From: Ilex aquifolium
Lineage: Eukaryota; Streptophyta; Magnoliopsida; Aquifoliales; Aquifoliaceae
Direction of reading: 5' to 3'
DNA: 64,000 nucleotides
Assembly: GCA_951799425.1 (NCBI GenBank)
Contig: OX637393.1
Coordinates: 20,501,744-20,565,743 of the forward strand
The notes under the pieces are model-generated. The model searched no databases. It was not told where the DNA came from and saw nothing but the letters and a program-made list of their open reading frames with translations. Position 1 is the first letter of the stretch, and each line of letters begins with the position of its first letter. Position numbers and translations under genes: made by a program. This document shows positions 20,198-63,103 of the stretch, piece by piece.

Positions 20198-20484
20198 TTA
20201 CCTGGCGTTCAAACGTTGAACCAAAATTAAAGTTTTTCTCTACTACACTATATACAATCAAAGAAAACAAAACACACAAATTTAAATCAAGAAAAACTAA
20301 GGCGTCTCAGGATGAACCCCTACCCACGCTTCAGGTTGGTATTTTGGGGCATTCCTTACTCGGCCCATATTTTCATTTCAGTCAAAAGAATTTATACAAA
20401 AAGATTTTTACACTTTTTACAACAAATTCGGACCTTTGGCATTCACTCCCCCAACAAAAGCACAAATTTCCTACAGAAAATTAT

Positions 20485-20895: not shown

Positions 20896-21080
20896 GATTG
20901 CTAAATTTTAAGACTCACTATCTGGTTCTTTAACGTCTGCCAGTCACAAAGACGATTGAAGCTGATTCATAAGCATAATCATCAATTTATACAATCAATG
21001 TTCAAACATGATTAACAGCAACAATAAAAATTTAAAAATTTACGAAAATTATGAACGAAAAAGAATTGATGAACTGATCA

Positions 21081-21096
21081 TACCCCCCAACCTAAA
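21081..21096 (-). other. Internal polypurine tract of E2
   Basis: Minus-strand text TTTAGGTTGGGGGGTATGATCAG closely resembles the PPT-LTR border of E2/E3 (TTAGGTTGGGGAGTGTGATTAG in E3) but lies about 100 bases downstream of the splice acceptor. An equivalent tract is in E3 (41552-41567) and E5 (54314-54332). It may act as a central plus-strand primer or be a relic of an old LTR border. Confidence 0.6.
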
Positions 21097-21481
21097 CTGA
21101 ACATTGTCCCCAATGTTTCGAATTTACCGGTTCATGGAGTGTGGAGATGAGGTTGAATGGTAGAGATCTGTTCACCGCTGAAACCTACAAACAAAAACAC
21201 AAAAATTACTCATCTGTGCGCAGATCTGGGTTTCGGGTAGGCTGAAAATCCTTATGTGTGAGTGCGAACAAGAGAAGAACACCCGTGAGCAAATATAAGA
21301 TTAAAATGCAAAACATGAAGCATAAAATCGTGTTTGTGGAGTGTGTGGTCATGGGTGATTTCTCGGGTAACAGAGACTCGAAGACGAACAAAAGGAAGAA
21401 GAAAAGAAAAAGAAAAAAAGAAGAAGAAGAATAAGAAAAGGGGGGGGGGCAATTGTGGCGGCTGGGGAAAAAGTGGGTGCC

Positions 21482-22927
21482 TTATAAAGGCGCCCCAGTG
21501 GGTCGGGTTGGAGTAGATATTTCCTGACCCGATCCACTGGAGTGTCGGCAGGCGCGAATTTCAGAAGAGTACTCTGGTTCCATTAAAAGAATGGTTTCCA
21601 CATTTCTAACACAGTCCTCCAAAAATGGTTTGAACCTCTGATCATTAACAGTAAAATTATTACCGTTTGCTGGGTTTTCCACTTCAACTGCTCCATATTC
21701 AAACACCTTTTTGACAATGTAAGGCCCAGTCCATCTTGATTTCAACTTACCAGGAAAGAGGCGGAGTCTTGAATTAAATAGCAAGACTTTTTGAGACGGC
21801 TCAAAAGATTTTTGCACAATGTGTTTGTCATGAAAAATTTTCATCCTGGTTTTAGCAATCTTAGCATTTTCATATGCTTCATTTCTCAATTCCTCCAATT
21901 CATTTATCTGAAGTTTCCTTGTTAGCCCAGTCTTGTCCAAGTCAACATTCATTGCTTTAATAGCCCAGTATGCCCTATGTTCCAATTCCACAGGCAAGTG
22001 ACATGGCTTTCCATAGACTAATCGATAAGGAGACATGCCTAAAATTGTTTTAAAAGCAGTACGGTATGCCCAGAGCGCATCAGTTAGTCTTAATGACCAA
22101 TCTTTGCGATCTGGATTCACCGTTTTTTCCAAAATTAATTTGATCTCCCGATTAGCTAACTCAGCTTGTCCACTGGTCTGTGGGTGATAAGGTGTTGCAA
22201 TTTTGTGAAAAATCAAGTATTTTTTCATTAAGTTCCAGAAGGGACGATTTAAAAAATGAGCACCTCCATCACTTATGATTGATTTCGGAATTCCAAACCG
22301 GGACAAAATATTTTCTTTCAAAAATTTGATCACTGTTTTGTGATCATTGTTTCGGCATGGAATTGCTTCAACCCATTTGGATACATAGTCTATAGCCACT
22401 AAAATGTATAGATAGCCAAAGGAAGGGGGAAATGGTCCCATAAAATCGATGCCCCAACAGTAAAAAATTTCAATTACCAGAATGGGGTTTAAGGGCATCA
22501 TATTTCTTTTAGAAATGTTTCCCAACCTTTGACACCTATCACAAGTTGAACAAAAGTCATGGACATCTTTGAAAAATGTGGGCCAGTAAAATCCACACTG
22601 CAATATTTTTGCAGCTGTTTTTCTTGATGAAAAGTGGCCACCGCATGCTTCAGAATGACAAAATGTTATTACCTGGCTACTTTCATGAGCAGGGATGCAA
22701 CGTCTTATGATTTGATCTTTACAGTACTTGAATACGTAAGGATCTTCCCAAAAGAAGTTACGAACTTCCCTCAGAAATTTCTTTTTGTCCAACATGGTAA
22801 AGGATGGAGGGAGTGTACCAGTAGCAAGAAAGTTAGCAATGTCTGCATACCATGGTGTCCTATCAATCATGAACAGTTGTTCAACGGGGAATTTCTCATT
22901 GATTGGCAGTCCATCCTCATGAAATTC
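21482..22927 (-). pseudogene. E2 integrase, distal part of broken pol
   Basis: Open frame continuing pol after the stop codon at 22928-22930. The zinc domain is visible as HSEACGGHF...CSTCDRCQ. The catalytic core has [16 protein letters not shown] and [11 protein letters not shown] with exactly 35 residues between the second Asp and the Glu. C-terminal GPY-like text ([20 protein letters not shown]) is present and there is no chromodomain, as expected for Athila. The domain itself is undamaged; it is cut from the rest of pol by stops upstream. Confidence 0.88.
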
Positions 22928-23410
22928 TTAGGTTAGTCTGGACAGATGATCTGCCACCACATTCTCGACACCTTTCTTGTCCTTGATGACAAGATCAAAC
23001 TCTTGGAGCAAAAGTATCCATCTCAAGAGTCTTGGTTTGGCATCCTTCTTTGCGAGCAAAAATTTTAGGGCTGCATGGTCAGTGAATACAGTAACAGAAG
23101 AACCAACAAGATAAGAACGAAATTTTTCCAGTGCAAAAACTACAGCAAACAATTATTTCTCAGTTGTCGAATAATTCATTTGGGCATCATTCAAAGTTTT
23201 GCTTGCATAGTAAATCACATGGGGTTTCTTATATTTTCTTTGTCCCAATACAGCACCTACATCAAAATCACTTGCATCACACATTAGTTCAAAGGGAAGA
23301 TTCCAGTCAGGGGGTTGCATTATTGGTGCAGAAATTAACATGTCTTTTAGCTTGTCAAAGGCTTTTTGGCATACTTCATTCCAATCAAATATTACATCCT
23401 GACTTAGGAG
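22928..23410 (-). pseudogene. E2 RNase H region with two stop codons
   Basis: Same frame as RT once S2 is discounted. It shows [42 protein letters not shown] and [13 protein letters not shown] at 23153-23155 replaces a conserved acidic codon after STTEK, and another TAA at 22928-22930 separates it from integrase. Confidence 0.85.
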
Positions 23411-23415
23411 GTGAC

Positions 23416-25327
23416 TGATGAGCACAAAATATTGTATATTTCAAGGCCTCATTACATGCATTTTAACTCAACTTTTGCATCTAAGTACTTAGAGTTAGTC
23501 GATTTTATGAATAATGTTGAATTCTTGATGTTGCATGTTTTTATAGATTAAATCATGTATTTTAGGACCTTGCAACTATGATGGATGTGTGGTGAGGGCA
23601 TGGACACATTACATGAAGATTGGGAGGCTTAAAAGTGAAGAAATCAAGGAGGTATTGGTGTTTGGGAACAAAGGCGCCAGCAGCCACACCAGTGGGTTGA
23701 TAAGCCTCGGTTTTCCTCCATTTTGACCATGATCCGCTTCGAATCTGAAAAAATTCAAAACATGAAAGTTGTAGATCTGGATGTCTTCTGTATTGTGTCA
23801 AAATTTCAGCTCAATCAGACGGTTAGATCAAAAGGTATGTCAATTCTACGAAGACTGGTCCGGAGCAGAAAAACAGTACCGGTACGCCGAAGCTACTGGT
23901 GTTCGAAGTACCGGTACGGTACAGTACCGGTACTGTCTTCTGAAAAAGCCCGAAATGCCTCCAAATCACTTCCCACTTGCTTGGGGGTCCCACCAATGCT
24001 TCTACCACTTGCCCCCCAACATTTCCTTACACATTTCCATGCCTCCCTGACACAACTTGAAGACTTTTGAGGCTTGGCATTCAAGGAGGAACAGAGAGAA
24101 ATGGGCTGCCATGTGGGTTGCAGGCTAGCCTGTCCAAGGCTTCAACTCAACCTCCTATTGATGGGAGGCCTGCACACAGCTGGGGGGACCACCATGCACG
24201 AAATTTGAAGGCTCACACTCCATATACTCAGCATTATTCAGCATTGCAAGGGGGTGGCTACCTAAGCTTAGTTTTAGTTCCATGTAGAAGATGATGAATA
24301 GTGTAATGTAAGTTTATGTTTTTGCATTTTCCTTTCCATTGCAATTGTTGTAAGCTTTAAACCTCTTGTAATCTTCGTTCCTTGCACTTTAATCTAAGTT
24401 GTTTCAAGTTTATTCCAAGTTTACTTGCATGTTCTTCATTTCACCATTGTTGCTTCAAGTTTTCTTCATTTCATCTTTTAAAATGGGTATTGCATATTTT
24501 CCTTCATAGCTTTAGATTTATTGCTTCAAGTTAAGTTTCATGCTTTAAATCTTCATTTCTCTACAATGTCTTTCATTTACATTATGCTTGTCTTTCTTTT
24601 ATGCATGAGTAGCTAGATTTTTAGTTGGCTAATTCAAGGGAGAATTCCTCTTGGGCCCTCCATTTCAACTTATTTTCTTTCCTCCCCGGTGTACGATGGT
24701 TCGGTTTGACTGGGTTGAGTGTGGACGTGGTGGTGAGTCCTTGATATCCCGTAGGCATTTGTCACGGGGTATGCTTGGATCCTCACCTCCATTTGGTTGT
24801 GTGGCTTTGATATTCCGTAGACTTGTCACGGTTTATGCTTAGATCCTCATTTCCATTTGTCCTGAGCTTCCCACGAATCAATCGTTCATCTATAAACCCT
24901 TGGAGGAAGGTTTTGAGTTGAGTTGGTATTCCCATTGGAATGACCCTTTGGATTAGCCAACATTTGTTTTCATTGCATTTTCATTCAAAAACTTCACTCA
25001 CAAAACACAAACACAAGATTTTACATTTTCCCTTTTGTTCACCAAAATCACTTTCACACACTCGAACTTTCCTTCCCTGAGGAGACGACCTTGGAATACT
25101 TTTCCAAGTAAAACACCGACACACAAAAGACTCTTTGCGATTGGAGAACACTTTTGTTCACACATTTCATTTCATATATTTTGTTCATTCCATTTTCCAC
25201 CAATCCGTTGTTGCCTAATCTCTTGCATCACCCCGAGGGAGAGTGACACTCCCCTTCACACATAAGCCATATACACATTGAGGAATGATGTTTAGGGGTT
25301 AGGAATAACAACGTTTTTGCTCAATCA
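23416..25327 (+). repeat. Solo LTR S2
   Basis: 1912 bp, TGATGAGCAC...TTTGCTCAATCA, flanked by GTGAC at 23411-23415 and 25328-25332. Same family as S1 and S3. Palindromic ACCGGT-core sites occur in its U3 (AGTACCGGTACG near 23875, GTACCGGTAC near 23909, AGTACCGGTACT near 23923). The hairpin GGGAGAGTGACACTCCCC is at about 25237-25254, some 75 bases before the LTR end. Confidence 0.94.
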
Positions 25328-27697
25328 GTGACACATTGGTTTTGCTATGGTACTGAAATCTTTTATGAATCTCCTGTAGAACCCTGCATGTCCTAGGAAT
25401 GATCGAACATCCTTTACAGTCTTAGGGGCAGGCAAATTTCCAATCAAATCAATTTTTGCCTTGTCAACTTTCATACCTTCAGACGACACAATGTGACCAA
25501 GAACAATGTCCTGTGTTACCATAAAATGGCATTTTTTCCAATTGAGCACTAGGTTGGCTTCCTTACATCTGATCAGTACTTTCTCTAGATTGGTTAAACA
25601 CAAATCGAAGGAATCACCATAGACAGAGAAGTCATCCATAAATACTTCCAAAATTTTTTCAACCATATCATTGAACAGGCTTAGCATACATCTTTGGAAT
25701 GTTGCAGGAGCGTTACAAAGTCCAAATGGCAACCTTTTGAATGCAAAGGTGCCAAAGGGGCATGTGAATGTTGTTTTCTCCTGATCATCTAAGGCTATCT
25801 CAATTTGGTTATACCCTGAATACCCATCTAAGAAACAGTAAAATGCATGCCCTGCAATTCTCTCCAGAACTTGGTCAAGAAATGGGAGGGGAAAATGATC
25901 TTTTCTAGTGACTAAATTGAGTTTTCGATAATCAATGCACATTCGCCATCCTGTGACGACTCGAGTTGGTACTAGTTCATTTGCATCATTTTTTACCACT
26001 GTGACCCCAGATTTTTTTGGCATAACTTGGGTTGGACTGACCCATTTACTATCTGAGATAGGGAAGATTATCCCTGCATCTAAGAGTTTGAGTACCTCGA
26101 TTCTCACAACTTCCTTCATGTGAGGGTTCAGTCGTCGCTGCATTTGACAAGAGGGTTTTGAATCCTCTTCAAGGTATATGACATGATTGCAGATTAACGG
26201 GCTTATACCTTTCAAGTCAGCGATGGTCCATCCAATGGTACTTTTATGACTTCGAAGAACTTCAAGCAATTTAGACTCTTGCAAGTCTGTGATTTTAGAT
26301 GAAATTACCACTGGGTATGACTCATTCTCTCCTAAAAATGCATATTTGAGGTCAGATGTGAGAGGTTTCAATTCAGGCCTTGGTGGGCTAACACTTGATG
26401 AGACTGGCTTTGTGCCACTCGGTGAAATTTCTTCGAATTTGGGTGCCCATGTCTCAACAGTATGAGTAGGGCCACTTGGTGGATTTGGGTCATCATCTGT
26501 TATTTCTGATGAGATGAGTTCTAACAGAGATGATTCATTAGGATCCTCACAGAATGTATCATCCAGATGTTCCTGTATCAAAGATTCTATGGAATTTACT
26601 TCCCTTTCTTCCTTTTCTTCTTCTGGATGTTTGGCAATATTGAAAATGTTTAGTTCGAGAGTCATATTTCCAAAAGTTAATTTCATTACTCCATTCCTAC
26701 AATTGATTAAAGCATTGGAAGTTGCTAGGAATGGCCGACCAAGAATGACGGGAATTTGGTTCTCCGAATTTATTGCTGGTTGAGTATCCAGAACAATGAA
26801 ATCAACAGGGAAGACAAAACTATCTACTTGGACAAGCACATCTTCAACAATCCCTCTGGGGGTTTTGACAGATCTGTCAGCCAACTGGAGTGTGATACAA
26901 GTGGGTTTAAGTTCACCCAGACCCAACTGCTGATAGACAGAGTAGGGTAGCAGATTAACGCTGGCTCCAAGGTCTAACAAGGCTTGTTCAATCCTGAATT
27001 TCCCAATGATACATGACACAGTTGGACATCCTGGGTCTTTGTATTTTGGAAGGGTTTTATGTTGGAGAAGAGCACTAGCTTGTTCCGTTAGGAAAGCTCT
27101 CTTTTGGACATTCTGGCTTCTCTTGATTGTGCACAAGTCTTTTAGAAACTTGGCATAAGACGGAACTTGTTTGATTGCATCCAGAAGTGGGATGTTGATA
27201 TTTACTTGCTTAAAAAGCTCGTAAATTTCAGGCTGATTTTCCTCCTTCTGTTTGGTTTTGAGTCGATGAGGAAACGGAGCTGGAATGGGATACGAAGGTT
27301 CCCTTTTCTCAGAAGGTTCTGGCTCTTGTTCAATCACAGGCTCAGGGTCTTTCTCAAGTTCAATCTCAATTGGTTCAGGTTCAGATGATGGATTGGCTGG
27401 GCTTGACTCAGGCCTTGGCTTGGGAATGAGTATGTCTCTGATTGTTTTGTCAATCACTTTGCCACTTCTTAATGTCGTGACAGCTTGGGCTTGGTCTTGG
27501 GTGTTTCCTGTTGTTGAAGGGTTCCCTACATGGAATTGGCCTTGTGGTTGCTTTGGTTGAGCAGGAAACCTTCCCTTTTCGTGTGTGACCATGGATTGAG
27601 TCAACTTTTGGATGTGGTTTTTAAGATCCTCAAAAGATTGAGTGGTCTGGGTTTTGAAATCAGTGAATTCCTGTGTGAAATTATTGTTATAATTCAT
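25328..27697 (-). CDS. E2 protease and reverse transcriptase (pol, interrupted by S2)
   Basis: 790 codons without a stop. Residues 1-150 are a charged gag-pro linker. Protease LDLGASVNLLPYS is at about residue 240. RT follows from about residue 500 (RRLNPHMKEVV, SDSKWVSPTQVMPKKSG, WRMCIDYRKLN), with catalytic FMDDF at about residue 686, and ends where S2 interrupts KPMCH. The first ATG overlaps the gag stop as ATGA (27697-27694), one base back from the gag frame. Family members usually fuse gag and pol, so this may be coupled reinitiation, frameshifting or an old 1-base indel. Confidence 0.9.
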
Positions 27698-28962
27698 TTG
27701 CTTTGCATGAACTGATTCAGTGTGTCCTCAAGGTTCCTCTTTTGTGGTGGTTGGTATGGTTGATATGCAGGAGGTCCTTGAGGTGGTGGGTATGGTCCTT
27801 GTTGTTGGTTCATGGGTATTGGTTGTGTGTTTTTCCAACTGAAGTTAGGGTGGTTTCGCCACCCTGGATTGTATGTTTCAGAATATGGGTTGGAGTAGGG
27901 CTTGTTGAAGTTGGAAACTGCATGTGTTTGTTCCAACAAGACTTCTTTGAATGCTGGGATGGTGGGACACTCCCCAGTAGGGTGTCCTGTTAGCGCACAA
28001 ATTCCACACATTTGCTCGGTGGAAGGGCTAACATCAACTTGATGGACTTTCTTCATCCCTAAAGCTTCAAGCTTTCGAGATAGTGTGGACATTTTTGCTC
28101 TCAAGTCATCATCCTCTCTCAAGACATATTTTCCTCCTTGGGAATTAGATGGTCTGGCTTCTACAGTGGTAGGGGAGGCTGAGTCCCACATCTGAGAACT
28201 GTCAGATATGGTGTCGAAAAAATTGAATGCCTCCTCCGGACTTTTTCCCATGAATTCTCCTTGGGCCATCATTTCGACAAACTGACGTAGTCTAGAGGGT
28301 AAGGAGTCATAGAAAAATCCTACCAAAGTCCAATTTTCAAAAGCATGATGTGGGCATGATTGGAGTAGATCTTTGAATCTCTCCCAACTTTGATAAAAAG
28401 TTTCTCCTTCTTTGACCGCAAAATTTATGATTTGCCTTTTTAGTGCATTTGTGCGGTGTAAAGGAAAAAACTTTCTAAAAAATTCATTTTGTAATGCTTG
28501 CCAATTGGGTATTGAAAAAGCCTTTAAAGAATTTAACCTTCGTTTGGCTCTATCCCTCAAGGAAAAAGAAAACAGTTTCATTTTGGCCAATTCAGAATTG
28601 TCTTGGAATGTTCCACACACTTCCTCAAAATCTTTTATATGCAGATATGGATTTTCTGCATCCAATCCATGAAATACGGGTAATAACTGTACTGTCCCCG
28701 GCTTTACAGTAAAGAGAGGAGCATTTTCAGGAAAAATAAAACAAGAGGGGACACTATTTCTTGTGGGATTTAAGTAATCCCGCAAAGTTCGGATGTTAGG
28801 GACCTCCTCCTCTCTCATAGGGACTTCTCCATTTCTTTCATTATTTGCCATACTACCCTCACAAGAGTCTGCTACTGATCTAGGTGAATTAGGTTCAGGC
28901 TGATTCACGGACTCACACGATTCTGCCGGCAAATTTTGGAAGTGAGGAGTGCCCTCAGTCAT
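27694..28962 (-). CDS. E2 gag polyprotein
   Basis: 422 codons, intact. The Athila capsid region (NPYLHIKDFEEVCGTF, AKMKLFSFSLRDRAKRRLN, QALQNEFFRKFFP, GETFYQSWERFKDLL) spans about residues 100-230. A zinc knuckle CGICALTGHPTGEC (CX2CX4HX4C) is at about residues 318-331, followed by a Pro/Gln-rich tail. The start ATG 28962 is about 95 bases after the PBS. It should form the nucleocapsid and bind element RNA. The whole ORF lies in the inferred intron. Confidence 0.92.
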   Translation of the reverse strand: MTEGTPHFQNLPAESCESVNQPEPNSPRSVADSCEGSMANNERNGEVPMREEEVPNIRTLRDYLNPTRNSVPSCFIFPENAPLFTVKPGTVQLLPVFHGLDAENPYLHIKDFEEVCGTFQDNSELAKMKLFSFSLRDRAKRRLNSLKAFSIPNWQALQNEFFRKFFPLHRTNALKRQIINFAVKEGETFYQSWERFKDLLQSCPHHAFENWTLVGFFYDSLPSRLRQFVEMMAQGEFMGKSPEEAFNFFDTISDSSQMWDSASPTTVEARPSNSQGGKYVLREDDDLRAKMSTLSRKLEALGMKKVHQVDVSPSTEQMCGICALTGHPTGECPTIPAFKEVLLEQTHAVSNFNKPYSNPYSETYNPGWRNHPNFSWKNTQPIPMNQQQGPYPPPQGPPAYQPYQPPQKRNLEDTLNQFMQSK

Positions 28963-29056
28963 AAAGAAAATAAAACAAAGTTATTTACAGTAAACCAAAA
29001 TATACACAATGTTGAAGGTCTTTTTACCTTTCACCTTAAAATACCTTTTAAAGGTT

Positions 29057-29073
29057 CCCCGGCAACGGCGCCA
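29057..29073 (-). other. Primer-binding site of E2 (tRNA-Asp)
   Basis: Exact 17-base complement of the tRNA-Asp 3' end, six bases (AGTCTT) after the 5' LTR end on the minus strand. Confidence 0.92.
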
Positions 29074-29079
29074 AAGACT

Positions 29080-31047
29080 TGATGCTTGATCCGAAATGTG
29101 TACACCCAACTGCAGGCGGTCAAGCTGTAGTAATAATCCGGTTTGAGTCCGGAGTCGAATCCACAGGGAACTTTTGTTGATATTTCTGAGGTGAGCAGTG
29201 GTAGAGACCTATTGATTGTAACCTTTGAGATTTGCTGTGAGATATGAGTTTTTCTGGACATAATATAAGATTCTTTCCAGGAAGATTTTCTTAACAAAAT
29301 AGGTGCTAATAAAAAAAGTCACTCTTTAGTGCAAGGATCTGGACATGTAGCTAGTTATCCGGTTTGTCATAATTGTGCTTGATAACTCAATTAACTCCCG
29401 TGTCAACAACAAGTTAATCGGAAGATAAAGATGGATTGTGAGAATTAAGAACATGATTCCGATGTCTTTCTAGAAGTTTACAAGAATTGCCTGTGCCGAG
29501 ACTTAACCCGTCTACAAACAAGCAAGTGTTTCTACAAGACATCCAATCATGATATTAATATTCCATTCTTTAAATGAAGTACAATAAGGGGGAAGATTGA
29601 GGGGTAGTCATGAGGATCTAGCCGGGGTACTTGCCTTGAACTGATGAGTCTTTCTATGCAAGAGTCATCCGTGTCATAGAAAGAACCCACAATTATACAA
29701 AGTACCCTAGCTTTGCTAGATGCAATCAATCATCCAATAACAAGAAGAAATAAGCGTTAAGCATAGAAACATTGCACAAATATGATTCCCGGATAACTTA
29801 TACATGCCCTTCTCCTCTTACTAAAGAGTGAATGAGAAACTACTCACTCTTCATGGCTTGCGTAAAGCTAGAAAAGTGAGTGATGCTTATCCCTCCAAGT
29901 AGAGAACTTATAAGATAAAGTAACAACAAATGCGTAGCCAATCTTTAACAAAGAATGAGTGAATCACATTCCACCCTTCACGGCTTTGGTAAAGCTCTAG
30001 AAAAGTGGAAGAGTTTCACTCTTCTAAGAAAGAAAGAAGCGCAAGCAATGGAAGTGAAATGTATGAACAATAAAAGTAGAAGAAAGCTAGTCACATTTGG
30101 AGGGTGGCTTCCTCAACCAAGAATTGGAGGGTTGCTTCCTCAACGAAAAGGTGAGCTATCTCTCTTCTATGCATGAAAAATGAAAGCATAAACATAAGCA
30201 TAAACATAAAACTACTGTTATAACAAGCAAGAGATGTTGGACTAAAGCCAAACTAATCTCTAAAATAAAGACTTCATACAAGGGAAATGAGCTAAATCTA
30301 CAATGAGAATGGGAGTCTAAGCCTCCATCAAATTTCCTACTTTCTACTTCCTACTTCCTACTTGGCTCTCATAACTCTCCAACAAGGGGAGTATTTATAG
30401 GCAAGAGGAGGAGACAAGGGGGGGGGGGGGGTGAAGGAATAGTGTTTGCCGCCCAAGTCCAAGTGAACAGTCAACAACTCTGCTGCCAGTCTGTGAATAA
30501 CGTTCGAACGTGAGTTGGTGTTAAAACGTTATTTCTGTTTTTGCACTAAGGGCGTTCGAATGTTTACTGCCGTTCGAACGTTTCTTCTGTTTTTGCACTG
30601 AGGGCGTTCGAACGCCAGATTTGCTTTGACCCTATCACTCGAGTAGTCTGGTGGTCTTCTGTGAGGTTCAGTTCCAACTCTTTGCAGTGGTCTGGTCTTC
30701 CATCAACTCAAGTGTACGTTCGAACGTGAGTTGGCGTTCGAACGTGACACTCAAGTGCTTCAGAGCTCCAGTCTTCTTTCCTAACTGCAACACGCCTTCT
30801 CTTCAGCAGTTGAGTCTGCTACAGTGCAATGTGGACGTTCGAACGTGATTTGGCGTTCGAACGTTCTGGCTGTGCTCCAAGCTTTTCCAATTTTGGCCCT
30901 AATGTGCTGGTGCTGCATCCAAGTGTGGTACTTGTTGTTCTTGGGTCCTTATTCAATTTAGGGCCTGAAATGACATCACTTAAACTCCATTAAAGTACAA
31001 TTAGTCTTAAAATGTCATAATAACATGTCAATTTTAAGTACTAATCA
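29080..31047 (-). repeat. 5' LTR of E2
   Basis: 1968 bp, minus-strand TGATTAGTAC...CAAGCATCA. It contains the palindrome array, TATAAATA at 30392-30399 and a 14-base G run (30418-30431) next to the promoter. The transcript start is probably 25-35 bases downstream of the TATA box. Confidence 0.93.
30392..30863 (-). promoter_or_regulatory. U3 promoter of E2 with CGTTCGAACG array
   Basis: Minus-strand TATAAATA at 30399-30392. Upstream are seven exact palindromes at 30501, 30571, 30605, 30717, 30735, 30836 and 30854, plus a degenerate site near 30553 (CGTTCGAATG); a site exact in the 3' LTR (16389) has decayed here near 30519. All sites contain a central CG and so could sense CG methylation. Confidence 0.8.
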
Positions 31048-36279: not shown

Positions 36280-36414
36280 AAGGCAAGCATTGAATTGAGA
36301 AGGTGATTTTCGGACAACGGAGGTAAGTCCCGTGATGTTCATCATGGGCTGAGGTACGTTGCTCCTTGTATATAATTTTCTTTGCTTACATTTTTATTTG
36401 TAGATAGTTGTTGT

Positions 36415-39460: not shown

Positions 39461-41411
39461 TGATTAGTACTTAAAATTGACATATTATTATGACATTTTA
39501 AGACTAACTGTACTTTAATGGAGTTTAAGTGATGTCATTTCAGGCCCTAAACTGAACAAGGACCCAATAACAACAAGTACCACACTTGGATGCAACACCA
39601 GCACATTAGAGCCAAAATTGGAGAAGCTTGAAGCACAGCCAGAACGTTCGAGCGCCAACTCACGTTCGAACGTCCACATTACACTGTAGCAGACTCAACT
39701 GCTGAGAGAAGGCGTGTTGCAGTTAGGAAAGAAGACTGGAGCTCTGAAGCACTTGAGTGTCATGTTCGAACGCCAACTCACGTTCGAACGTGCACTTGAG
39801 TTGATGGAAGACCAGACTACTGCAAAGAGTTGGAACTGAACTTCACAGAAGACCAACAGACCACTCGAGTGAAAGGGTCAGAGCAAATTTGGCGTTCGAA
39901 CGCCCTTAGTACAAAAACAGAGGAAACGTTCGAACGGCAGTCAACGTTCGAACGCCCTTAGTGCAAAAACAGAAAGAACGTTCGAACGCCTAGTCACGTT
40001 CGAACGTTCTCCACAGACTGACAGTAGAGTTGTTGACTGTTCACTTGGACTTGGGCGGCAAACACTATTCCTTCACCTCCTCTTGTCTCCTCCTCTTGCC
40101 TATAAATACTCCCCTTGTTGGAGAGCTTTGGGAGGGAAGCTAAGTAGGAAGTAGGAAGTAGGAAAATTGATGGAGGCTTAGACTCCCACTCTCATTGTAG
40201 ATTTAGCTTATTTTCCTTGTATGAAGTATTTATTTTAGAGATTAGTTTGGCTTTAGCCCAACATCTCTTGCTTGTTATAAAAGTAGTTTTATGCTTATGC
40301 TTATGTTTATGCTTTCATTTTACATGCATAGAAGAGAGATAGCTCACCTTTTGGTTGAGGAAGCAACCCTCCAATTCTTGGTTGAGGAAGCCACCCTCCA
40401 AATGTGACTAGTTTTCTTCTACTTTTATTGTTCATGCATTTCACTTCCATTGCTTGAGCTTCTTTCTTTCTTAGAAGAGTAAAATTCTTCCACTTTTCTA
40501 GAGCTTTACCAAAGCCGTGAAGGGTGGAACGTGATTCACCCATTCTTTGTTAAAGATTGGCTCCGCGTTTGTTGTTACTTTATCTTTTAAGTTCTCTACT
40601 TGGAGGGATGAGCATCACTCACTTTTCTAGCTTTACCCAAGCCATGAAGAGTGAGTAGTTTCTCATTCACTCTTTAGTAAGAGGAGAAGGGCATGTATAA
40701 GTTATCCGGGAATCATATTTGTGCATTATTTTTATGCTTAACGTTTATTTCTTCTTGTTATTGGATGATTGATTGCATCTAGCAAAGCTAAGGTACTTTG
40801 TATAATTGTGGGTTCTTTCTATGACATGGATGACTCCTGCATAGAAAGACTCATCAGTTCAAGGCAAGTACCCCGGCTAGATCCTCATGACTACCCTTCA
40901 ATCCTCCCCCTTATTGTACTTCACTAAAAGAATGGAATATTAATATCATGATTGGATGTCTTGTAGAAACACTTGCTTGTTTGTAGATGGGTTAAGTCTC
41001 GGCACAGGCAATTCTTGTAAACTTCTAGAAAGACATCGGAATCATGTTCTTAATTCTCACAATCCATTTTTATCTTCCGATTAACTTACTGTTGACACGG
41101 GAGTTAATTGAGTTATCAAGCACAATTATGTCAAACGGGATAACCAACTACATGTCCAGATCCTTGCACTAAAGGGTGACTCTTTTTAATTAGTACTTAT
41201 TTTGTTAAGAAAATCATCTTGGAAAGTATTCTGTCCAGGAAAACTCATATCTCACAGCAAATCTCAAAGGTTACAATCAATAGGTCTCTACCACTGCTCA
41301 CCTCAGAAATATCAACAAAAGTTCCCTGTGGATTCGACTCTGGACTCAAACCGGATTATTACTACAGCTTGACCGCCTGCACTTGGGTGTACACATTTCG
41401 GATCAAGAACA
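39461..41411 (+). repeat. 5' LTR of E3
   Basis: 1951 bp, TGATTAGTAC...GATCAAGAACA. TATAAATA is at 40101-40108. Confidence 0.92.
39643..40108 (+). promoter_or_regulatory. U3 promoter of E3 with CGTTCGAACG array
   Basis: Seven exact palindromes at 39663, 39781, 39893, 39927, 39945, 39979 and 39997, with degenerate ones near 39645 (CGTTCGAGCG) and 39763. TATAAATA follows 94 bases after the last. Confidence 0.8.
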
Positions 41412-41417
41412 AGTTTT

Positions 41418-41434
41418 TGGCGTCTTTGCCGGGG
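41418..41434 (+). other. Primer-binding site of E3
   Basis: TGGCGTCTTTGCCGGGG, two mismatches to the tRNA-Asp complement, six bases (AGTTTT) after the LTR. Confidence 0.82.
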
Positions 41435-41459
41435 AACCTTTGAAAGGTGTTTTAAGGTA

Positions 41460-41467
41460 AAAGGTCT
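41460..41467 (+). other. Exon-exon junction scar in E3
   Basis: AAG/GTCTCAG. Bases up to 41463 align with the E2 leader (…AAGGTGAAAG before the intron), and from 41464 with E2 immediately after its acceptor (GTTTCAGCGGTGAAC). Shared AGGT at the join leaves a few bases of ambiguity, and microhomology-mediated deletion is the alternative explanation. Confidence 0.75.
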
Positions 41468-41551
41468 CAGCGGTGAACATATCTCTACCATTCAACCTCG
41501 TCTCCACACTCCATGAACCGGTAAATTCGAAACATTGGGGACAATGTTCAG

Positions 41552-41567
41552 TTTAGGTTGGGGGGTA
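41552..41567 (+). other. Internal polypurine tract of E3
   Basis: TTTAGGTTGGGGGGTA, same position and sequence as in E2 (21081-21096), preceded by the small inverted repeat CATTGGGGACAATG. Confidence 0.6.
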
Positions 41568-41751
41568 TGATCAGTTCATCAGTTCATTAGTTCATATTTT
41601 CGTAAATTTTTTAAATTTTGTTTTGTCGTTGTTGATCATGTTTGAACATTGATTGTATAAATTGATGATTATGCTTATGAATTAGCTTCAATCGTCTTTG
41701 TTACTGGCAGACGTTAAAGAACCAGATACTGAGTCTTAAAACTTAGCAATC

Positions 41752-42162
41752 ATGGATATAAATCTTTTTTGGTTTAGCCTAGGAGTTCTACGTACTTTTC
41801 CATCTGATGTACATACTATGATCATGAGAAAAGCAAGATTAGTAAGGAAGGCTGAAATCAAAGAAAAACAAGCGAAACCCCTATGTGGCAGAAGCAGCTT
41901 TGCCAAACGCCGTAGTGCCAAAAGGCTTGGTGCCTGTAAACAGTGTGGCAGATTCTTTCACGAAAAAAGGTACAACCAGTGTTCTGAACCAATTTTCGGT
42001 CGCGCACTTGATCGATTAGACTGGATAGTGAATGGGCTGAGTAAGGATTACCCTGATACGCCATGCTATTCCGGTACTGTGCTTAACCAATTTGTGAGAG
42101 AGGAAGTTGGGAGAGTTACTGGTTGTCCATTCTACACAGACACAGAGGGAGACTCGGATTAG
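41752..42162 (+). CDS. Small basic zinc-finger protein of E3, flexivirus NABP-like
   Basis: 136 codons, intact, 289 bases after the junction scar. Same layout as the E2 protein. Thirteen base differences separate the two copies by my count: nine change the amino acid and four are silent. One change alters the arginine run (KRRSAKR instead of KRRRAKR). All Cys and His of the finger are kept. The N/S ratio does not show strong purifying selection since their split. It is the first ORF downstream of the leader, as expected for its own spliced mRNA. Confidence 0.72.
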   Translation: MDINLFWFSLGVLRTFPSDVHTMIMRKARLVRKAEIKEKQAKPLCGRSSFAKRRSAKRLGACKQCGRFFHEKRYNQCSEPIFGRALDRLDWIVNGLSKDYPDTPCYSGTVLNQFVREEVGRVTGCPFYTDTEGDSD

Positions 42163-42449
42163 ATAATTTTCTGTAGGAAATGTGTACTTTTGTTGGGGGA
42201 GTGAAAGCCAAATGTTCGAATTTGTTGTAAAAAGTGTAAAAATCTTTTTGTGTAAATTCTTTTGACTGAAATGAAAAATATGGGCCGAGTAAGGAATACC
42301 CCAGAATACCAACCTGAAGCGTGGGTAGGGGCTTATCCTGAGACGACATAGGTTTTTGATTTAAATTTGTGTGTTTTGCCTTCTTTGATTGTATATAGCG
42401 TAGTGGAGAAAAATTTTAATTTTTGGTTCAACGTTCGAATGCCAGGTAA

Positions 42450-42751
42450 CGTTCGAACGTCAGCTGCTTACAGTACTCAGCCTCTGAGGAAGATTCTGAT
42501 GAAACGAGAAAGTACTGGGATCTCTATCCATTCGAACGCCAATAGACCGTTCGAACGAGATTAACGTTCGAACGCCAATAGAACGTTCGAACGAAGAGAA
42601 CTTGCAGTACTTTGGCCTCTGACAGAACACAAAAGTACTGAGAGCTCACCACGTTCGAACGCCAAACGACGTTCGAACGGTCTGTTTAAAATCCTTCTAC
42701 CAACGTTCGAACGTCACCAACGTTCGAACGTTACAACTCAAGCTATAAAAG
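42450..42751 (+). promoter_or_regulatory. Internal promoter-like module of E3
   Basis: Eight exact CGTTCGAACG sites (42450, 42548, 42565, 42584, 42652, 42670, 42704, 42721) followed 14 bases after the last by TATAAAAG (42744-42751). The env-like ATG is about 210 bases downstream. The arrangement matches E2. Confidence 0.76.
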
Positions 42752-42961
42752 CCTGGTTCGTCTTCTTCATTCCAAAACCCTCCTAAAACTCTGAAAACCC
42801 GAAAAACCCTTGGGACTCTTCACTACCCAGACCTCAAACCCCAACCATTCTCCATCTTCACCAAAAAATCAACCCTCCCAAGACATTTGCCACTTCAAGA
42901 AGATCCATTTTCACAAAGAAATCAAAGATTTCAAAACCCTCCAACTCAAAAACCGAAAAAA

Positions 42962-44064
42962 ATGCCAAGAGTCAAGCTTCCTGCCAGGAGGAACCCAAAC
43001 ACCCAAGAGCCAAATTTTGTCGAAGAGGTGGTGGAGGTGAGAGAAGGAATGCCACCACTCACCAGGAGATACGACAAGACTCGGTTCCTCACACCTCTAA
43101 AAGCAGACAGGTATGAAAATTTCTACCAAAACAAAGCCATTGTTTGTGAAAGAGATGTGATTTTGGCTGATTTTGCGGAGTTGGGGATCTTTGCGGAGAT
43201 GGAAAGGAGGGGGTGGTTGTTTTATTTAAGGAACGGCGGTGAAGCCGTAGTCGACTTGGTGCGGGAGTTTTTACTCCAATGCCGAGATCATCGACGGGGA
43301 AATTCAAACTTACGTAAGGGGAGTCCATGTGGACGTTGATAAGGATTATATTTGGGGGGTAAGGCAAGAGGTGCCTCGGGTTCCAAATCCCGCTTATCCC
43401 CCAAGGAAGAATGTGGTGATGAATGAGGTGGGGAAGGAACTAACTGGAGTACCCAATTTTTCGTGGACTGGGAAGAAATTTTTTAGACAAGGGGAGCTAA
43501 GTGACAAATACAAAATGTTAAACTTGATTGCAGTGTCGAATTTTGCTCCAATAGGAAGAAAAAAATGAAGTTTTACCTGACATGGCCCGGTTGTTGTATG
43601 CGATTGGAAAAGGGCAAAGCATTGATCTCCCCTCCCTAATTCTGACATAAATGAAAAAGGGGTGTGATGTGAAGAGGAATTCGCTTCCCTTCGGCACCCT
43701 AGTGACAGAACTGTGCAAAGGCCATGGGGTGAGGGTAAAACCCGAGATGGAAATCCAAAAGCCGATGGGGCCACTGAACAAGGCTTCCTTCCGGAGGAGC
43801 CAAAGTCATAGTGGCGGCCCAGCGGCAAGACAAGAAGAGCCCCCTACCCATGGAGTGGATGAAGTACAAGAGGAACTTGATGCAGAGGAGGAGAGAGAGA
43901 TGGAGAGAGAGAGAAATCAACCAGTAGATGAAGGCCCTAGCACCAGCACCAGCACCCGACGCTCCTTACGGGACGTCATGCTTAGCATTGAAGCTAAACA
44001 GGATGAGATCCTTAGGCTTCTGATGGGTGGACATGGCGGAGATTGTGCACAAGGAGGAGAGTGA
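42962..44064 (+). pseudogene. env-like ORF of E3, frameshifted
   Basis: Same family as E2 19676-18678 (MPRVKLPARRNP..., ERYDKTRF-type start, LVREF, SNFAPIGRK). Broken by a 1-base T insertion near 43270, a 1-base A insertion in the A run near 43560, and a TAA near 43648. Unlike E2 it keeps the C-terminal region: a Glu/Arg-rich stretch, a Ser/Thr run and a likely helical segment (RRSLRDVMLSIEAKQDEILR). No hydrophobic N-terminal segment. Confidence 0.8.
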
Positions 44065-45870
44065 GAGAGAGGGATTTCTGTTCTTGTTCTTGTTTTTATG
44101 TTTGTTTAAAGTGCTTCTTTTTATGAATTTCTTCTTTGATAGTTGTAAATTTTTTGTGTGATTGTGAATGAATCGAACCGTTGATATTAAAAGATGATAT
44201 TTTGAGAAATGAATGGTTCTATTTATCACTTTTATTTGTTTTACTGCATTTTTAGATTTAGCATAAAAATTAAAAGGTGATGGAACAAATGTGGATGTTA
44301 AGAATGCTTGCTAGAGTAAATATGCACATGATCGGTTTGACACCTTAATTTATCAGCCAAGACTTAAAACCACATTTCTTGAAAAATTGGTATTCTCTCT
44401 ATACTTAAATTGTCATATGTACATCGATATTTGTTATTTTAAAGGTACAGGAAGATCTGACTTGAAAATGGAATTGGTATATAACCAATACCCCCTGGAA
44501 AACCCGACATACACAGTGGAGATAACAAAGAACACCAGGATGAGTTTCGAACCTAACGATGCTTCCGAGAGACAATCAATGTTTACTCAAGTAAATTCTT
44601 TTCACTCTCAATTTTTGAATAATCTCGTTAACCTTGTTTTGATTGACGCACTTAAAAGTGATCTATTGACATATCCCACAAGGAACCATCGTATACGACA
44701 CATACATGTGCACATGCTTGAGAAATGATCTTAGGCCATCTTTGATATAATATTGAGCCTTAGACCTTTCTTTGACAAAATTTATCCCTCGTTAGCCATG
44801 TTTGAGCCATCAATGTATGAATTTTTCTTTGATAAACCTATATGATTACCAATCCACAGGAAAACATACTTGACATACCTTGGCTATCTAATTTTCTTAC
44901 ATCCTCTTTGTAAGATGATACAGAAAAAGGAAAAGAAAAAGAAGCATTCGAGATTATCATCCAAGAAGAGTTGATTGGAACAAGTGAAACAAAATAGAAG
45001 CAAAAAGGCAAGAACTTGCCAAGAAAGTGAAAAACGAGAAAAGTGAAAGAAAGAAATGTCATCTCTCGGCAAAATATCAAGAAGTTAGAAAAATGTGTGC
45101 TACAATACGTAAACAGAAGATAGCTTTTGAAAATCCCTGACGTCGTTTCGTTAGCCACTGACCTCTAGCCACGCTACAACCTATGAAAAGCCCTAATTGA
45201 TCTCAACTCTGTTACATGCATGTGTTGTTAATCAAAATTGGGATATGGTAAATAACATTTCTTTAAATTGCGTTAATATTCTTTCATGAGATTATGCCAA
45301 ACATAAGTAGTTGTTTCTTTAAAATTTCACTCCTTTCCTAATTGTGCATGTGATTTTTCAATTGGCCATCTTTTGATCACATGATATGTGAGAAACAAGT
45401 CACTATAATCAGAGTGAACTTTTGCTGAGAGTATACTACGTGAGGTTTGTGAAATCGAAACTATCCATGGAAGGTGAAAAAATGGAGTATTTGTTACATA
45501 ACAATTCCTGTTGCTTGAATGATCATTCCTACTGCATTGAGAATTTCAAATATCAATGTAACAAATGATAATTTTTGCATAGAATGAATACCTGTGAAAT
45601 AAGGACGTGTGAGATATAAGTCAAAATTGAGAATCTGGTGTCTCAACGACCATGATGCTAATTTACTTTAATCAGCACTCTCCTATGCACATCTGTTCGA
45701 CTGAAGTTTGTGGGTAGCTTCCCTGGAAACCCTCACGAGACAACACTCGTCCGCTAGGGTAAACCTAGTGGTTCAACGGCTTGTTGCATAAGCTAAATGC
45801 AACCGGATGACCTACAAAAATGGCATTAGGAGTAGATTTTTCTTTTTCGTATTACTAGAGACTAGCAATA
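44065..45870 (+). other. Conserved spacer of E3
   Basis: Homologous to 16934-18677 in E2. Landmarks: 'gatcttaggccatctttga' near 44728 and 'catgagattatgccaa' near 45285. No supported gene. Confidence 0.65.
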
Positions 45871-45886
45871 TTTAGGTTGGGGAGTG
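45871..45886 (+). other. Polypurine tract of E3
   Basis: TTTAGGTTGGGGAGTG immediately before the 3' LTR. Confidence 0.78.
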
Positions 45887-47786
45887 TGATTAGTACTTAA
45901 AATTGACATATTATTATGACATTTTAAGACTAACTGTACTTTAATGGAGTTTAAGTGATGTCATTTCAGGCCCTAAACTGAACAAGGACCCAAGAACAAC
46001 AAGTACCACACTTGGATGCAACACCAGCACATTAGAGCCAAAATTGGAGAAGCTTGAAGCACAGCCAGAACGTTCGAACGCCAACTCACGTTCGAACGTT
46101 CACATTACACTGTAGCACTCAACTGCTGAGAGAAGGCGTGTTGTAGTTAGGAAAGAAGACTGGAGCCCTGAAGCATTTGAGTGTCACGTTCGAACACCAA
46201 CTCATGTTCGAACGTGCACTTGAGTTGATGGAAGACCAGACTACTGCAAAGAGTTGGAACTGAACTTCACAGAAGACCAACAGACCACTCGAGTGAAAGG
46301 GTCAGAGCAAATCTGGCGTTCGAACGCCCTTAGTACAAAAACAGAAGAAACGTTCGAACGGCAGTCAACGCTCGAACGCCCTTAGTGCAAAAACAGAAAG
46401 AACGTTCGAACACCTACTCACGTTCGAACGTTCTCCACAGACTGGCAGCAGAGTTGTTGACTGTTCACTTGGACTTGGGTGGCAAACACTATTCCTTCAC
46501 CTCCTCTTGCCTATAAATACTCCCCTTGTTGGAGAGCTTTGGGAAGGAAGCTAAGTAGGAAGTAGGAAGTAGGAAAGTTGATGGAGGCTTAGACTCCCAC
46601 TCTCATTGTAGATTTAGCTTATTTTCCTTGTATGAAGTATTTATTTTAGAGATTAGTTTGGCTTTAGCCCAACATCTCGTGCTTGTTATAAAAGTAGTTT
46701 TATGCTTATGCTTATGTTTATGCTTTCATTTTACATGCATAGAAGAGAGATAGCTCACCTTTTGGTTGAGGAAGCAACCCTCCAATTCTTGGTTAAGGAA
46801 GCCACCCTCCAAATGTGACTAGCTTTCTTCTACTTTTATTGTTCATGCATTTCACTTCCATTGCTTGAGCTTCTTTCTCTCTTAGAAGAGTGAAACTCTT
46901 CCACTTTTCTAGAGCTTTACCAAAGCTGTGAAGGGTGGAACGTGATTCACCCATTCTTTGTTAAAGATTGGCTCCGCGTTTGTTGTTACTTTATCTTTTA
47001 AGTACTCTACTTGGAGGGATGAGCATCACTCACTTTTCTAGCTTTACCCAAGCCATGAAGAGTGAGTAGTTTCTCATTCACTCTTTAGTAAGAGGAGAAG
47101 GGCATGTATAAGTTATCCGGGAATCATATTTGCGCATTATTTTTATGCTTAACGTTTATTTCTTCTTGTTATTGGATGATTGATTGCATCTAGCAAAGCT
47201 AAGGTACTTTGTATAATTGTGGGCTCTTTCTATGACACGGATGACTCTTGCATAGAAAGACTCATCAGTTCAAGGCAAGTACCCCGGCTAGATCCTCATG
47301 ACTACCCTTCAATCCTCCCCCTTATTGTACTTCACTAAAAGAATGGAATATTAATATCATGATTGGATGTCTTGTAGAAACACTTGCTTGTTTGTAGACG
47401 GGTTAAGTCTCGGCACAGGCAATTCTTGTAAACTTCTAGAAAGACATCGGAATCATGTTCTTAATTCTCACAATCCATTTTTATCAAGCACAATTATGTC
47501 AAATCGGATAACCAACTACATGTCCAGATCCTTGCACTAAAGGGTGACTCTTTTTAATTAGTACTTATTTTGTTAAGAAAATCATCTTGGAAAGAATCTT
47601 ATATTCTGTCCAGAAAAACTCATATCTCACAGCAAATCTCAAAGGTTACAATCAATAGGTCTCTACCACTGCTCACCTCAGAAATATCAACAAAAGTTTC
47701 CTGTGGATTCGACTCCGGACTCAAACCGGATTATTACTACAGCTTGACTGTCTGCACTTGGGTGTACACATTTCGGATCAAGAACA
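45887..47786 (+). repeat. 3' LTR of E3
   Basis: 1900 bp. It lacks about 45 bp present in the 5' LTR near 41070-41120 (deletion at about 47485). TATAAATA at 46512-46519; palindromes from about 46070 to 46430, several decayed. Confidence 0.92.
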
Positions 47787-59712: not shown

Positions 59713-62232
59713 GTTAAAGAATATTTTGGTCTGATTGGAAGACTTTCCTTTTTTATTTAGGCGTGTGATTTATTCTTTTTAGGAAAGTAAAACTTTCCTT
59801 GTCTATTTAGGAGTGTGATCAGCCTAGTTAAGGGCTGATTGTCTTTCTTTTTTCCTTTTGTAGGCAAGTAAGAGTTTGTCTTTAGTTATTCCTATTTGGG
59901 TTTGGATTGTCAAAATATAAACTCAGATTAGGATTTGTTTCCTTAGCAGATTAGGATTTGTTTCCTTAGTAGATTAGGATTTGTTTCCCTAGCATATTAG
60001 GATTCTTTAGGAATTTTCTTTGTAATGGCCAGCCTATAAATAGGCGTCTAAATCAATGAAAAGGTAGATTATTTGATTGATGAAAAACGTTGTTGTATCC
60101 TAACCTCGTAACATCACCCTCACCCTCAATGTGTGTATGTGGCTTATAATGATGGGGGAGTGTCACTCTCCCTCCGGATAATGCAAGAGATATAGGAGCA
60201 ACAACAAATGTGAATGGAAATGTGGAATGAACAAAATATGTGGAATGAAATGCGGGTGTGAACAAAAGCGCTCCCCAATCGCAAGGAGTCTTTCGTTGTC
60301 GGTGTTTTACTTGGAAGAGTATTCCAAGGTCGTCTCCTCAGGGAAGGAAAGGGAGTTATGTGAAAGTGATTTTGGTGAACAAAAGAGAAAAATGTAAAAT
60401 CTTTGTTTGAGTTTTGTGGTTGTGATTGAAAATGAAAATGCAATAAAACAAGTGTTGGCTAATCCAAAGAGGTCATTCTAATGGGAATTCCAACTCAACT
60501 CGAAATCTTCTTCCAATGGTGCATAGGTGAACGATTGATTCGGGGGAAGCTAGGGACAAGATTGGTGAGTATCTAAGCATAAACCGTGACTCGGCCTATG
60601 GAATATCAAAGGCTCACTAACTCGTCCACTCTCAACCCCGTCAAACCGAACCACCGTACACTGAGAGGAGGAAGGAGAAGAGTTGAAATGGAATCCCCAA
60701 GAGAAGGTCTCCCTTGGATTACCCAACTTAAATCTAACTACTCATTCATAAAAGAAAGCCAAGCATAATGTAAATAGACAAGTAAAGGAAAAGAAGATTA
60801 AAACTTAACTAGATGCAAGAAATCTTAAAGTAAGAAGAAGGAAATACAATACCCAATTTAAAGCATGAAAATGAAGAACTTGAAAGCATAACAATGGTGA
60901 AATGTAAAGTGCAAGGCTAAACTTGAAATGTACTTCTAATAAATGGCATTAAAGACAGTAAATGAAGCTTACAATATCCTTACAAGAGGTTACAAGAGAA
61001 ATGGATGGAAGAACATGTAAAAATCACAACTTTACTATTCATCTTCTTCCTCACTAAAACTACTCTAAGCTTAGGTAGCCAACCACCCATACAATGTGTA
61101 ATGCTGAATATAATGGTGTGTGGGAGACTTCCAATTTCGTGCATGAGGCTCCCCCCAAGGTGTGTGCAAAGCCTCCATCAAGAGGGGGCTGAGTTGATGG
61201 GTCTTGACAGGCTAGCCTGCAACCCCCTATGGCAGCCCACTTCTCCCTCCTCTTCATTCAATGCCAAGCCTCCAAAGTCTTCCATTTGTGTAAGGGAGGC
61301 ATGGTTGTAGGGATAAAATGTCAGGCTAGGCGTGGGAGAAGTGTAGGTGGGACCCCCAAGCAAGTGGAGCAAGAAAGAAGTCGTTCTGGGCACTTCTGGG
61401 CAATCAGCTACCGGTAGCTCGGCGGTAGTAGCAACTCCAGAAGCAATCGGCTACCGGTAGTAATGCGGTATCTGGCTTCGCTGGACCATTTTTGGTAGAA
61501 TCGGCATAACTCTTGATCTATCCGTTGGATTGAGCTGAAATTTTGACACAATACAGAAGATACACATATCTACAACTTTCATGTTTTGAAAATTTCCAAA
61601 TTTTGAGTAGATCATGGTAAAAATGGAGGAATTCCGAGGCAGTGCTTCCAATTGTTGCTGCAGCTGGTGCCCTTGTTCCCAAGCACCAATGCCTTCTTGA
61701 TTTCTTCACTTTTAAGCCTCCAATTCTTCATGTATTGTGTCCATGCCTTCACCACACATCCAACATAGTTGCAATGTCCTAAAATACATGATTTAAGCAA
61801 TAAAAACTTGCAACATCAAAATATCAACATTATTCATAATTTCGGCTAACTCTAAGTACTTAAATGCAAAAGTTGAGTTAAAATGCATGTAATGAGCCCT
61901 TCAAATATGCAATATTATGTGCTCATCATTATTATTCAGCAAAATTGGAGAGTGTTTTCTTTGCGGTTCTTTGAAGAACTATTCGAATTTATCGGGATTT
62001 CCCGTGGCGTTCACCAGTAACTTATCAAATGGAATTTCCACCACCGTTTTTGGCGTCTCCCTTATACCGAGGTTCTTGTTTTCCCAATAAACAACGGGTT
62101 GAGGTCATAAATACCAAGGTTCTTGTTTATCGTAAAATAGCGGGTCGAGGTCTATCATTCAAATCTGATCATAGAACGATCTTGGGTTCCTTTTCATTGT
62201 TGGATCTCGTTATTTTGGCGGGGTTCACATCA
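59713..62232 (+). repeat. LTR of E6 (approximate), split by S3
   Basis: Probable TGTTAAAG...CACATCA ends. TATAAATA at 60035-60042. A 23-bp tandem repeat (AGATTAGGATTTGTTTCCTT plus 3 bases) occurs about 3.5 times at 59925-60004. About 665 bp once S3 is removed. Confidence 0.5.
60074..61928 (-). repeat. Solo LTR S3
   Basis: 1855 bp, TGATTGATG...GTGCTCATCA, flanked by TTATT at 60069-60073 and 61929-61933. Same family as S1 and S2. Its U3 has GCTACCGGTAGC near 61408-61419 and a GCTACCGGTAG copy near 61450, a palindrome variant different from S1 and S2. Confidence 0.92.
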
Positions 62233-62967: not shown

Positions 62968-63103
62968 ATAACAAAACTATCTACAAATAGAAATGTAAAT
63001 GACAACAGTATATACAAGGATCAACGTACCTCAGCCCATGATGAACATCACGGGACTTACATCCGTTGTCCGGAAATCACCTTCTTGATTCAACGCTTGC
63101 CTT

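Follow-up and report, generated by a model that had tools for sequence, protein, structure and literature searches.

Background

The closest precedent for an integrated spliced retroelement RNA is the SD' RNA of murine leukemia virus (MLV), known in its integrated form as SDARE (PMC2925334). In plants, spliced subgenomic RNAs of long terminal repeat (LTR) retrotransposons have been described for Bagy-2 and the Athila env-class, as a spliced env RNA (PMC7264820 and PMC3735527, which describe Vicient 2001), and for BARE1, as a spliced subgenomic Gag RNA (PMC3735527). The BARE authors reasoned that packaging and integration of spliced RNA are things a retrotransposon has to avoid, and they report that no DNA copies of BARE's were found (PMC3735527). 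For Diaspora of soybean, anomalous packaging of a spliced RNA was proposed by its authors as a means of removing a gene in one step (PMC1142308). Here we describe E3, an element without gag-pol in a 64,000-nucleotide stretch of the Ilex aquifolium genome (contig OX637393.1, positions 20,501,744 to 20,565,743, hereafter the window). E3 is very probably an integrated DNA copy of a subgenomic RNA spliced from the transcript of an Athila-like Ty3/gypsy element, or the descendant of such a copy, and events of this kind would have occurred repeatedly in this genome.

Like Bagy-2, the Ilex element is of Athila type, has an open reading frame (ORF) downstream of pol and would make a spliced subgenomic RNA; unlike Bagy-2, whose spliced form is reported as a transcript, it has left genomic DNA copies of the spliced form, and it carries an additional ORF related to viral nucleic-acid-binding proteins (the Viral_NABP family). 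DNA copies of the spliced form likewise distinguish it from BARE1. In Diaspora the gene lost is env, and the proposal was put forward as a hypothesis (PMC1142308); in Ilex it is gag-pol that has been removed, with joins at splice sites. In comparison with SDARE, the Ilex case concerns a Ty3/gypsy element of a plant, with three splice donors and genomic copies that number in the dozens. No case of a plant LTR retrotransposon with integrated copies of its spliced form was recognised in a literature search judged from its listings.

Results and discussion

E3 and its unspliced relative E2

Several Athila-like LTR elements lie within the window. The two compared here, E3 on the forward and E2 on the reverse strand, are made up as follows.

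39461-47786 (+): E3, whole element, gag-pol-less relative of E2
39461-41411 (+): E3 5' LTR, from BLAST and direct reading
41418-41434 (+): E3 primer binding site (PBS), two mismatches to the E2 motif
41462-41465 (+): AGGT of the E3 join, with the putative exon-exon junction at 41463/41464
41552-41563 (+): E3 internal copy of the polypurine tract (PPT) motif, 89 bp past the junction
41752-42162 (+): E3 136-aa ORF, Pfam Viral_NABP (1.6e-8) and Carla_C4 (1.2e-4)
42962-44123 (+): E3 Transposase_32-type ORF region, broken frame, decayed
45871-45882 (+): E3 3' PPT motif
45887-47786 (+): E3 3' LTR, followed by the target duplication CCTCC

14915-31047 (-): E2, whole element, with two LTRs, gag, protease-reverse transcriptase (RT), integrase, 136-aa ORF and Transposase_32 ORF
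29080-31047 (-): E2 5' LTR
29028-29079 (-): E2 leader, the first exon past the LTR, with the PBS and, as donors, three AAG|GT sites at which the intron would start (29044, 29034 and 29027)
21185-29027 (-): E2 putative intron, with gag, protease-RT, integrase and an LTR-like insert
27694-28962 (-): E2 gag ORF (Retrotrans_gag)
25325-27697 (-): E2 protease-RT ORF, ending at the LTR-like insert
21482-22870 (-): E2 integrase ORF (rve, Integrase_H2C2)
16918-21184 (-): E2 putative second exon, reaching the 3' LTR
20485-20895 (-): E2 136-aa ORF, Viral_NABP (2.6e-8) and Carla_C4 (3.4e-5)
18678-19676 (-): E2 Transposase_32 ORF (PF20167, 1.3e-23)
14915-16917 (-): E2 3' LTR

A preliminary description of the window, made from the sequence alone, had noted that E3 lacks gag-pol yet has both LTRs, a PBS, a PPT and a target duplication of 5 bp, and BLAST together with direct reading bore this out. 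E3 has TG...CA termini and is flanked on both sides by CCTCC; its LTRs are 94.7% identical by BLAST and 97.9% with gaps excluded, corresponding to a gap-free divergence of 2.1% as against 1.2% in E2. It retains the LTRs, PBS, 136-aa ORF, a Transposase_32 remnant and the PPT, and is collinear with E2 save for a single large gap, where gag-pol is gone, and a diverged Transposase_32 region. A second PPT motif stands just past the splice acceptor in both elements, at 21085-21096 (-) in E2 and 41552-41563 (+) in E3; its 12 bases are identical to the 3' PPT motif of E3, and the LTR-start-like TGATCAG follows.

The PBS motif TGGCGCCGTTGCCGGGG was found in E2, and it may correspond to tRNA-Asp. A PBS of the tRNA-Asp type has been reported for the Calypso group and Diaspora (PMC1142308). 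Gag, protease, RT and integrase are all found in E2, with pol interrupted by the insert, together with a post-pol ORF of the Transposase_32 type, a domain tied to Athila (PMC11728184); by this ORF content E2 and E3 appear to be Athila-like Ty3/gypsy elements. The 1.9-kb LTR-like insert, at about 23416-25327 (-), resembles 60074-61928 and 7884-9705, and most unspliced relatives (17 of 20) have their leader correspondingly closer than E2 with its insert. Between integrase and acceptor, the putative intron also contains a 48-codon hydrophobic ORF noted by eye (21206-21352, -).

The join matches strong splice-like sites of E2

Alignment of E3 with E2 breaks at E3 41462-41465. The E2 positions that flank the break are 21186 and 29026, and AGGT forms the overlap; BLAST and direct reading place the junction between leader and post-integrase sequence at 41463/41464, exactly as first described. 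On its donor side E2 reads ...AAAG|GTAAAAAG, with the intron starting at 29027; on its acceptor side, after integrase, it reads ...TTTTTGTTTGTAG|GTTTCAG (context also read as TTTGTTTGTAG|GTTTCAG), with the exon starting at 21184. AGGT is common to both sides. The spliced length predicted from E2 in the preliminary description, 52+4267=4319 bp, holds against an internal region of 4475 bp in E3.

Approximate dicot splice weights were used to score all GT and AG dinucleotides within the internal region of E2. The acceptor at 21184 ranked first of 752 AGs and the donor at 29027 fifth of 608 GTs, and best of the ten in the leader. Joins from the E2 leader to points downstream of gag fall into 927,735 classes, and none but the observed class attains its splice score. 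With 300 jittered weight sets the acceptor had a median rank of 3 of 752 (95th percentile 37) and the donor a median rank of 11 of 608 (95th percentile 55), or 1 within the leader. By a bare count of T the acceptor was joint first of 752, with two tied. The scoring and the T-count agree with the canonical GT-AG pair and pyrimidine-rich lead-in noted earlier, and E3 shares with SDARE an internal join that corresponds to a donor and an acceptor of the full-length element, as judged by score.

The same break could in principle have arisen with no splicing at all, if RT had switched template, within one unspliced RNA or between two, from the AGGT after integrase to one of the AGGT copies of the leader. 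Recombination is evident in this family, and the 4-bp microhomology is present in all three of the joins described below. However, E2 has 34 downstream AG|GT sites, and the E3 join uses the one with the top acceptor score, 11.67 against 8.51 for the runner-up. Microhomology of 4 bp or more is present in 5,100 join classes; 465 of these are GT-AG compatible, and just one attains the observed score.

The same join recurs across the host genome

The host assembly (800 Mb, 103 contigs) was searched with a 201-bp query across the E3 junction. At least 40 junction matches were found, 88-100% identical, and 38 of the 40 listed match end to end. Gag-pol-less copies other than E3 were thus found, and comparison of their junctions showed one acceptor throughout. 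Instead of scattered, non-GT-AG breaks, the 40 listed junctions (E3 and 39 fetched copies, called spliced copies below) use two adjacent AAG|GT donors, 29027 in 35 cases and 29034 in five (L023, L024, L026, L027 and L046). The third tandem donor, 29044, had been listed among the leader donors before its junction was sought, and it too was found joined to this acceptor.

Short junction patterns were compared with reversed controls. The main type, at up to three mismatches, occurred at 43 places against nine in the control, of which about 35 appeared real by eye, one of them new. The donor-29034 pattern occurred at 20 places against 11, with the five known copies and one possible extra standing out, and the donor-29044 pattern, at up to three mismatches, at 14 places against seven, 11 of them with at most one mismatch. 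The unspliced leader-donor pattern, at up to two mismatches, occurred at 1,035 places and at none in the control. Spliced to unspliced forms would thus stand at roughly 36+5+11 to 1,035, a ratio good to an order of magnitude only, as the patterns and mismatch limits differ.

The splice sites are kept in the unspliced relatives. The AAG|GTAAAA donor is present in all 17 unspliced leaders found (20 were sought), and every one of 20 copies close to E2 has an intact acceptor TAG, as do 19 of 20 from a second subfamily, marked by GCAGATG (L119 has TAC). Eight unspliced copies of the GCAGATG subfamily were checked for a leader: in three (L110, L112, L123) an exact unspliced leader lies 5.9 kb upstream, in two (L117, L124) it lies at 7.8-8.3 kb, and three have none among the matches listed. 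Further copies of the L015-type second exon, at 90% identity or more, exist outside the junction list. The post-integrase segment also repeats about every 1,518 bp on contig C2, at 23935641-23960169, a region that contains L113 and gave at least 15 matches; this is a tandem array derived from the Athila-like element.

A less biased look was provided by the 63 exact leaders listed on contigs C1-C3. Fifty-seven read exactly on into the intron, and E3 accounts for one more; among the remaining five, L067 is already known to be unspliced, a second has its unspliced acceptor at a distance of 5.9 kb, and three gave no clear assignment. Joins from the leader to other places thus appear not to be common on these contigs, a further count against template switching between short repeats, which together with the choice of acceptor leaves that explanation highly improbable.

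Flanks and target duplications of the copies

The start of the 5' LTR could be read in 30 of the 39 fetched copies, and the flanks all differ except those of L036 and L037, which are one insertion, duplicated. Exact 5-bp target duplications were found in all six spliced copies in which the 3' end was located, out of eight sought: GTACT, CATTG, CACCA, AACCT, TGACG and ATGCA, the last by eye with the LTR end taken one base further. These six ends lie 412-498 bases into the fetched stretch; those of L009 and L018 fall outside it. Two LTRs and a target duplication, as in SDARE, are thus found in E3 and six other copies.

These observations bear on the loss of gag-pol from a full-length insertion by illegitimate recombination in chromosomal DNA. 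The preliminary description had pointed to the AGGT microhomology and had kept a DNA deletion as an option; the microhomology is confirmed, and the deletion has become unlikely now that the join recurs in many copies. Small deletions with microhomology do occur at this locus, for example one of 43 bp in the 3' LTR of E3. However, an identical nucleotide join recurs in copies that differ in flanks, target duplications and ancestry, and none of the other indels of at least 8 bp between window copies was GT-AG compatible (0 of 9 listings, several of which represent one event, and 0 of 8 in a second comparison). We regard this explanation as vanishingly improbable. A single DNA deletion is rejected on the grounds of the recurrence, the separate target duplications and the trees described next.

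Ancestry on the two sides of the join

For the tree of sequence after the join, 40 spliced copies were combined with 41 unspliced ones, the sampled unspliced pieces comprising 20 close to E2 and 20 of the GCAGATG subfamily. The latter were drawn from the 40 matches listed; one comes from the tandem array, and copies already sampled were left out. This tree requires 18 changes between spliced and unspliced labels, at least seven of them forced by well-supported branches, and 0% of bootstrap trees have a single label change. The tree before the join (R-U5 and leader), with 40 spliced and 18 unspliced rows, the latter from the E2 side of the family only, requires four changes, all forced. Odd rows were retained: L123, with a long branch in the after-join tree, L010, L013 and L026, with long branches in the before-join tree, L036/L037, and L113 from the tandem array.

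Three spliced copies have matching unspliced relatives before and after the join: L009 groups with L065/L067, L028 with L066, and L025 falls inside the E2 group. Interleaving of this kind apparently reflects several separate events. Taken together, the recurrence, the three donors, the interleaving and the separate duplications are best fitted by repeated retrotransposition of spliced RNA, and one DNA deletion does not fit them. As the position of E3 itself is fixed by neither tree, its source may be either the spliced RNA of a full-length copy or the transcript of an earlier spliced copy.

A different account of the trees would have one spliced founder giving rise to a non-autonomous family, with later recombination with full-length relatives and slippage in the AAGGT repeats mimicking the interleaving and the other two junction lengths. 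It overlaps with repeated retrotransposition of spliced RNA because the founder would itself still be a spliced RNA. The leader does contain tandem AAGGT repeats; all three are present in the pattern fitted by the 1,035 unspliced leaders, which may speak against slippage. Also against a single founder, L009, L025 and L028 belong with three distinct unspliced lineages whichever side of the join is considered, and tips of the GCAGATG subfamily in the after-join tree are both spliced and unspliced. Furthermore, L022, L028 and the unspliced L066 have in common substitutions 2 and 6 bases past the junction, so that a crossover would be needed at the join itself. On this evidence we consider a single founder very unlikely.

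Several points nevertheless weigh against the repeated insertion of spliced RNA. A clade of ten spliced rows (L014, L015, L018-L021, L023, L026, L027, L031) may be one amplified lineage, as a single founder would predict, although its junctions mix two donors. L022, which joins L028/L066 on the 3' side only, and L055/L059 swap partners between the trees; such recombinant-looking copies can mimic independent origin and likewise favor a single founder. The 3'-side sister pairs are partly weak (L009 86/74; L025 97/76). A bare consensus count does not single out the donor, which ranks third in a tie of 27, and AGGT is common to all three donors and the acceptor, so that RT jumping between short repeats is formally possible. 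The 11 donor-29044 places, two of which lie on the small contigs C24 and C63, are known as 24-base patterns alone, and the junction searches were aimed at this join, so that other joins would escape them. Additionally, L047 is no plain single insertion, as PPT-like sequence precedes its upstream LTR.

A proposed route and its consequences

In the pathway that we favor, the full-length RNA would start in the 5' LTR, and the host spliceosome would link one of the three tandem AAG|GT donors, ~35-56 nt past the LTR, to the strong TTTGTAG|GT acceptor just after integrase, a splicing pattern reported for Bagy-2 (PMC7264820). Gag-pol would be lost from the product, which would still have the two RNA ends needed for reverse transcription, along with the PBS, the PPT and the ORFs of the NABP and Transposase_32 types. 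Gag, RT and integrase supplied in trans by full-length relatives would then package, copy and insert it, and splicing followed by insertion would have taken place repeatedly. The preliminary description had taken E3 for an integrated copy of a spliced retroviral-type RNA; recurrence, interleaved trees and target duplications now support that view beyond the window.

The SD' RNA of MLV retains the same Psi as the genomic RNA (PMC2925334). In the Ilex element the donors are only ~35-56 nt past the LTR, so that a packaging signal would sit before them or in the second exon, and its location in an Athila-like element becomes testable. If the proposed route is correct, spliced copies are a recurrent product in this genome, contrary to the expectation voiced for BARE, and splicing offers a one-step route to gag-pol-less, non-autonomous elements. 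The copies would also be a fossil record of splicing, in which genomic DNA reveals the choice of donor with no need for RNA. Retrotransposition of spliced RNA might even be a regular side path, with packaging allowed by signals that lie in the LTR, in the 50-nt leader or in the second exon, and with the carlavirus-type RNA-binding protein encoded on the same RNA perhaps helping to carry it; we offer this as speculation that is rather unlikely to hold. If true, the element would keep seeding satellite copies that encode accessory proteins only.

The ORFs carried by the spliced form

The 136-aa ORF, called a zinc-finger ORF in the preliminary description, is carried by the spliced form and matches the profiles of carlavirus nucleic-acid-binding proteins above the Pfam cut-offs (Viral_NABP 34.5 bits, cut-off 23; Carla_C4 24.2 bits, cut-off 20.9). 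Ten homologous proteins from public assemblies are 63-82% identical, and 46 positions are invariant across 12 sequences. Between E2 and E3, nonsynonymous divergence (dN) is 0.029 and synonymous divergence (dS) 0.047, estimates that show no strong constraint on the ORF in this pair. The gene was possibly captured from plant RNA viruses, or is common to them. Its structure model has a mean pLDDT of 44.7, too low for fold comparison, and the eight matches to solved structures are weak, to ribosomal eL37/eL43, with a best E of 0.075. A search of collections of viral and genome contigs with the NABP alignment returned no loci. A carlavirus-type ORF in Athila was not recognised in a literature search at the level of listings, in which PMC5967125 contains both words.

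The Transposase_32 region looks like a swapped module: 42857-43835 (+) and 18805-19798 (-) are 63-84% identical per 200 columns, and the flanks mostly 91-98%. Upstream of it, at 42450-42760 (+) and 19890-20200 (-), is an internal array of the palindrome GTTCGAAC, which also fills the U3 of the LTRs; 48 of its 49 occurrences in the window fall in these LTRs and arrays, and the other is at 19680, just before the E2 ORF. A TATA-like box follows the array and precedes the Transposase_32 ORF (at 42743 in E3 and, as the reverse motif, at 19897 in E2). Array and box together look like a second, internal promoter.

Finally, the leaders of three other Athila-like elements contain, right before gag, an intron-like stretch of 80-81 nt (GTAAGT...ATTTGTAG), located at 3998-4079 (+), 62980-63060 (-) and 36323-36404 (+).

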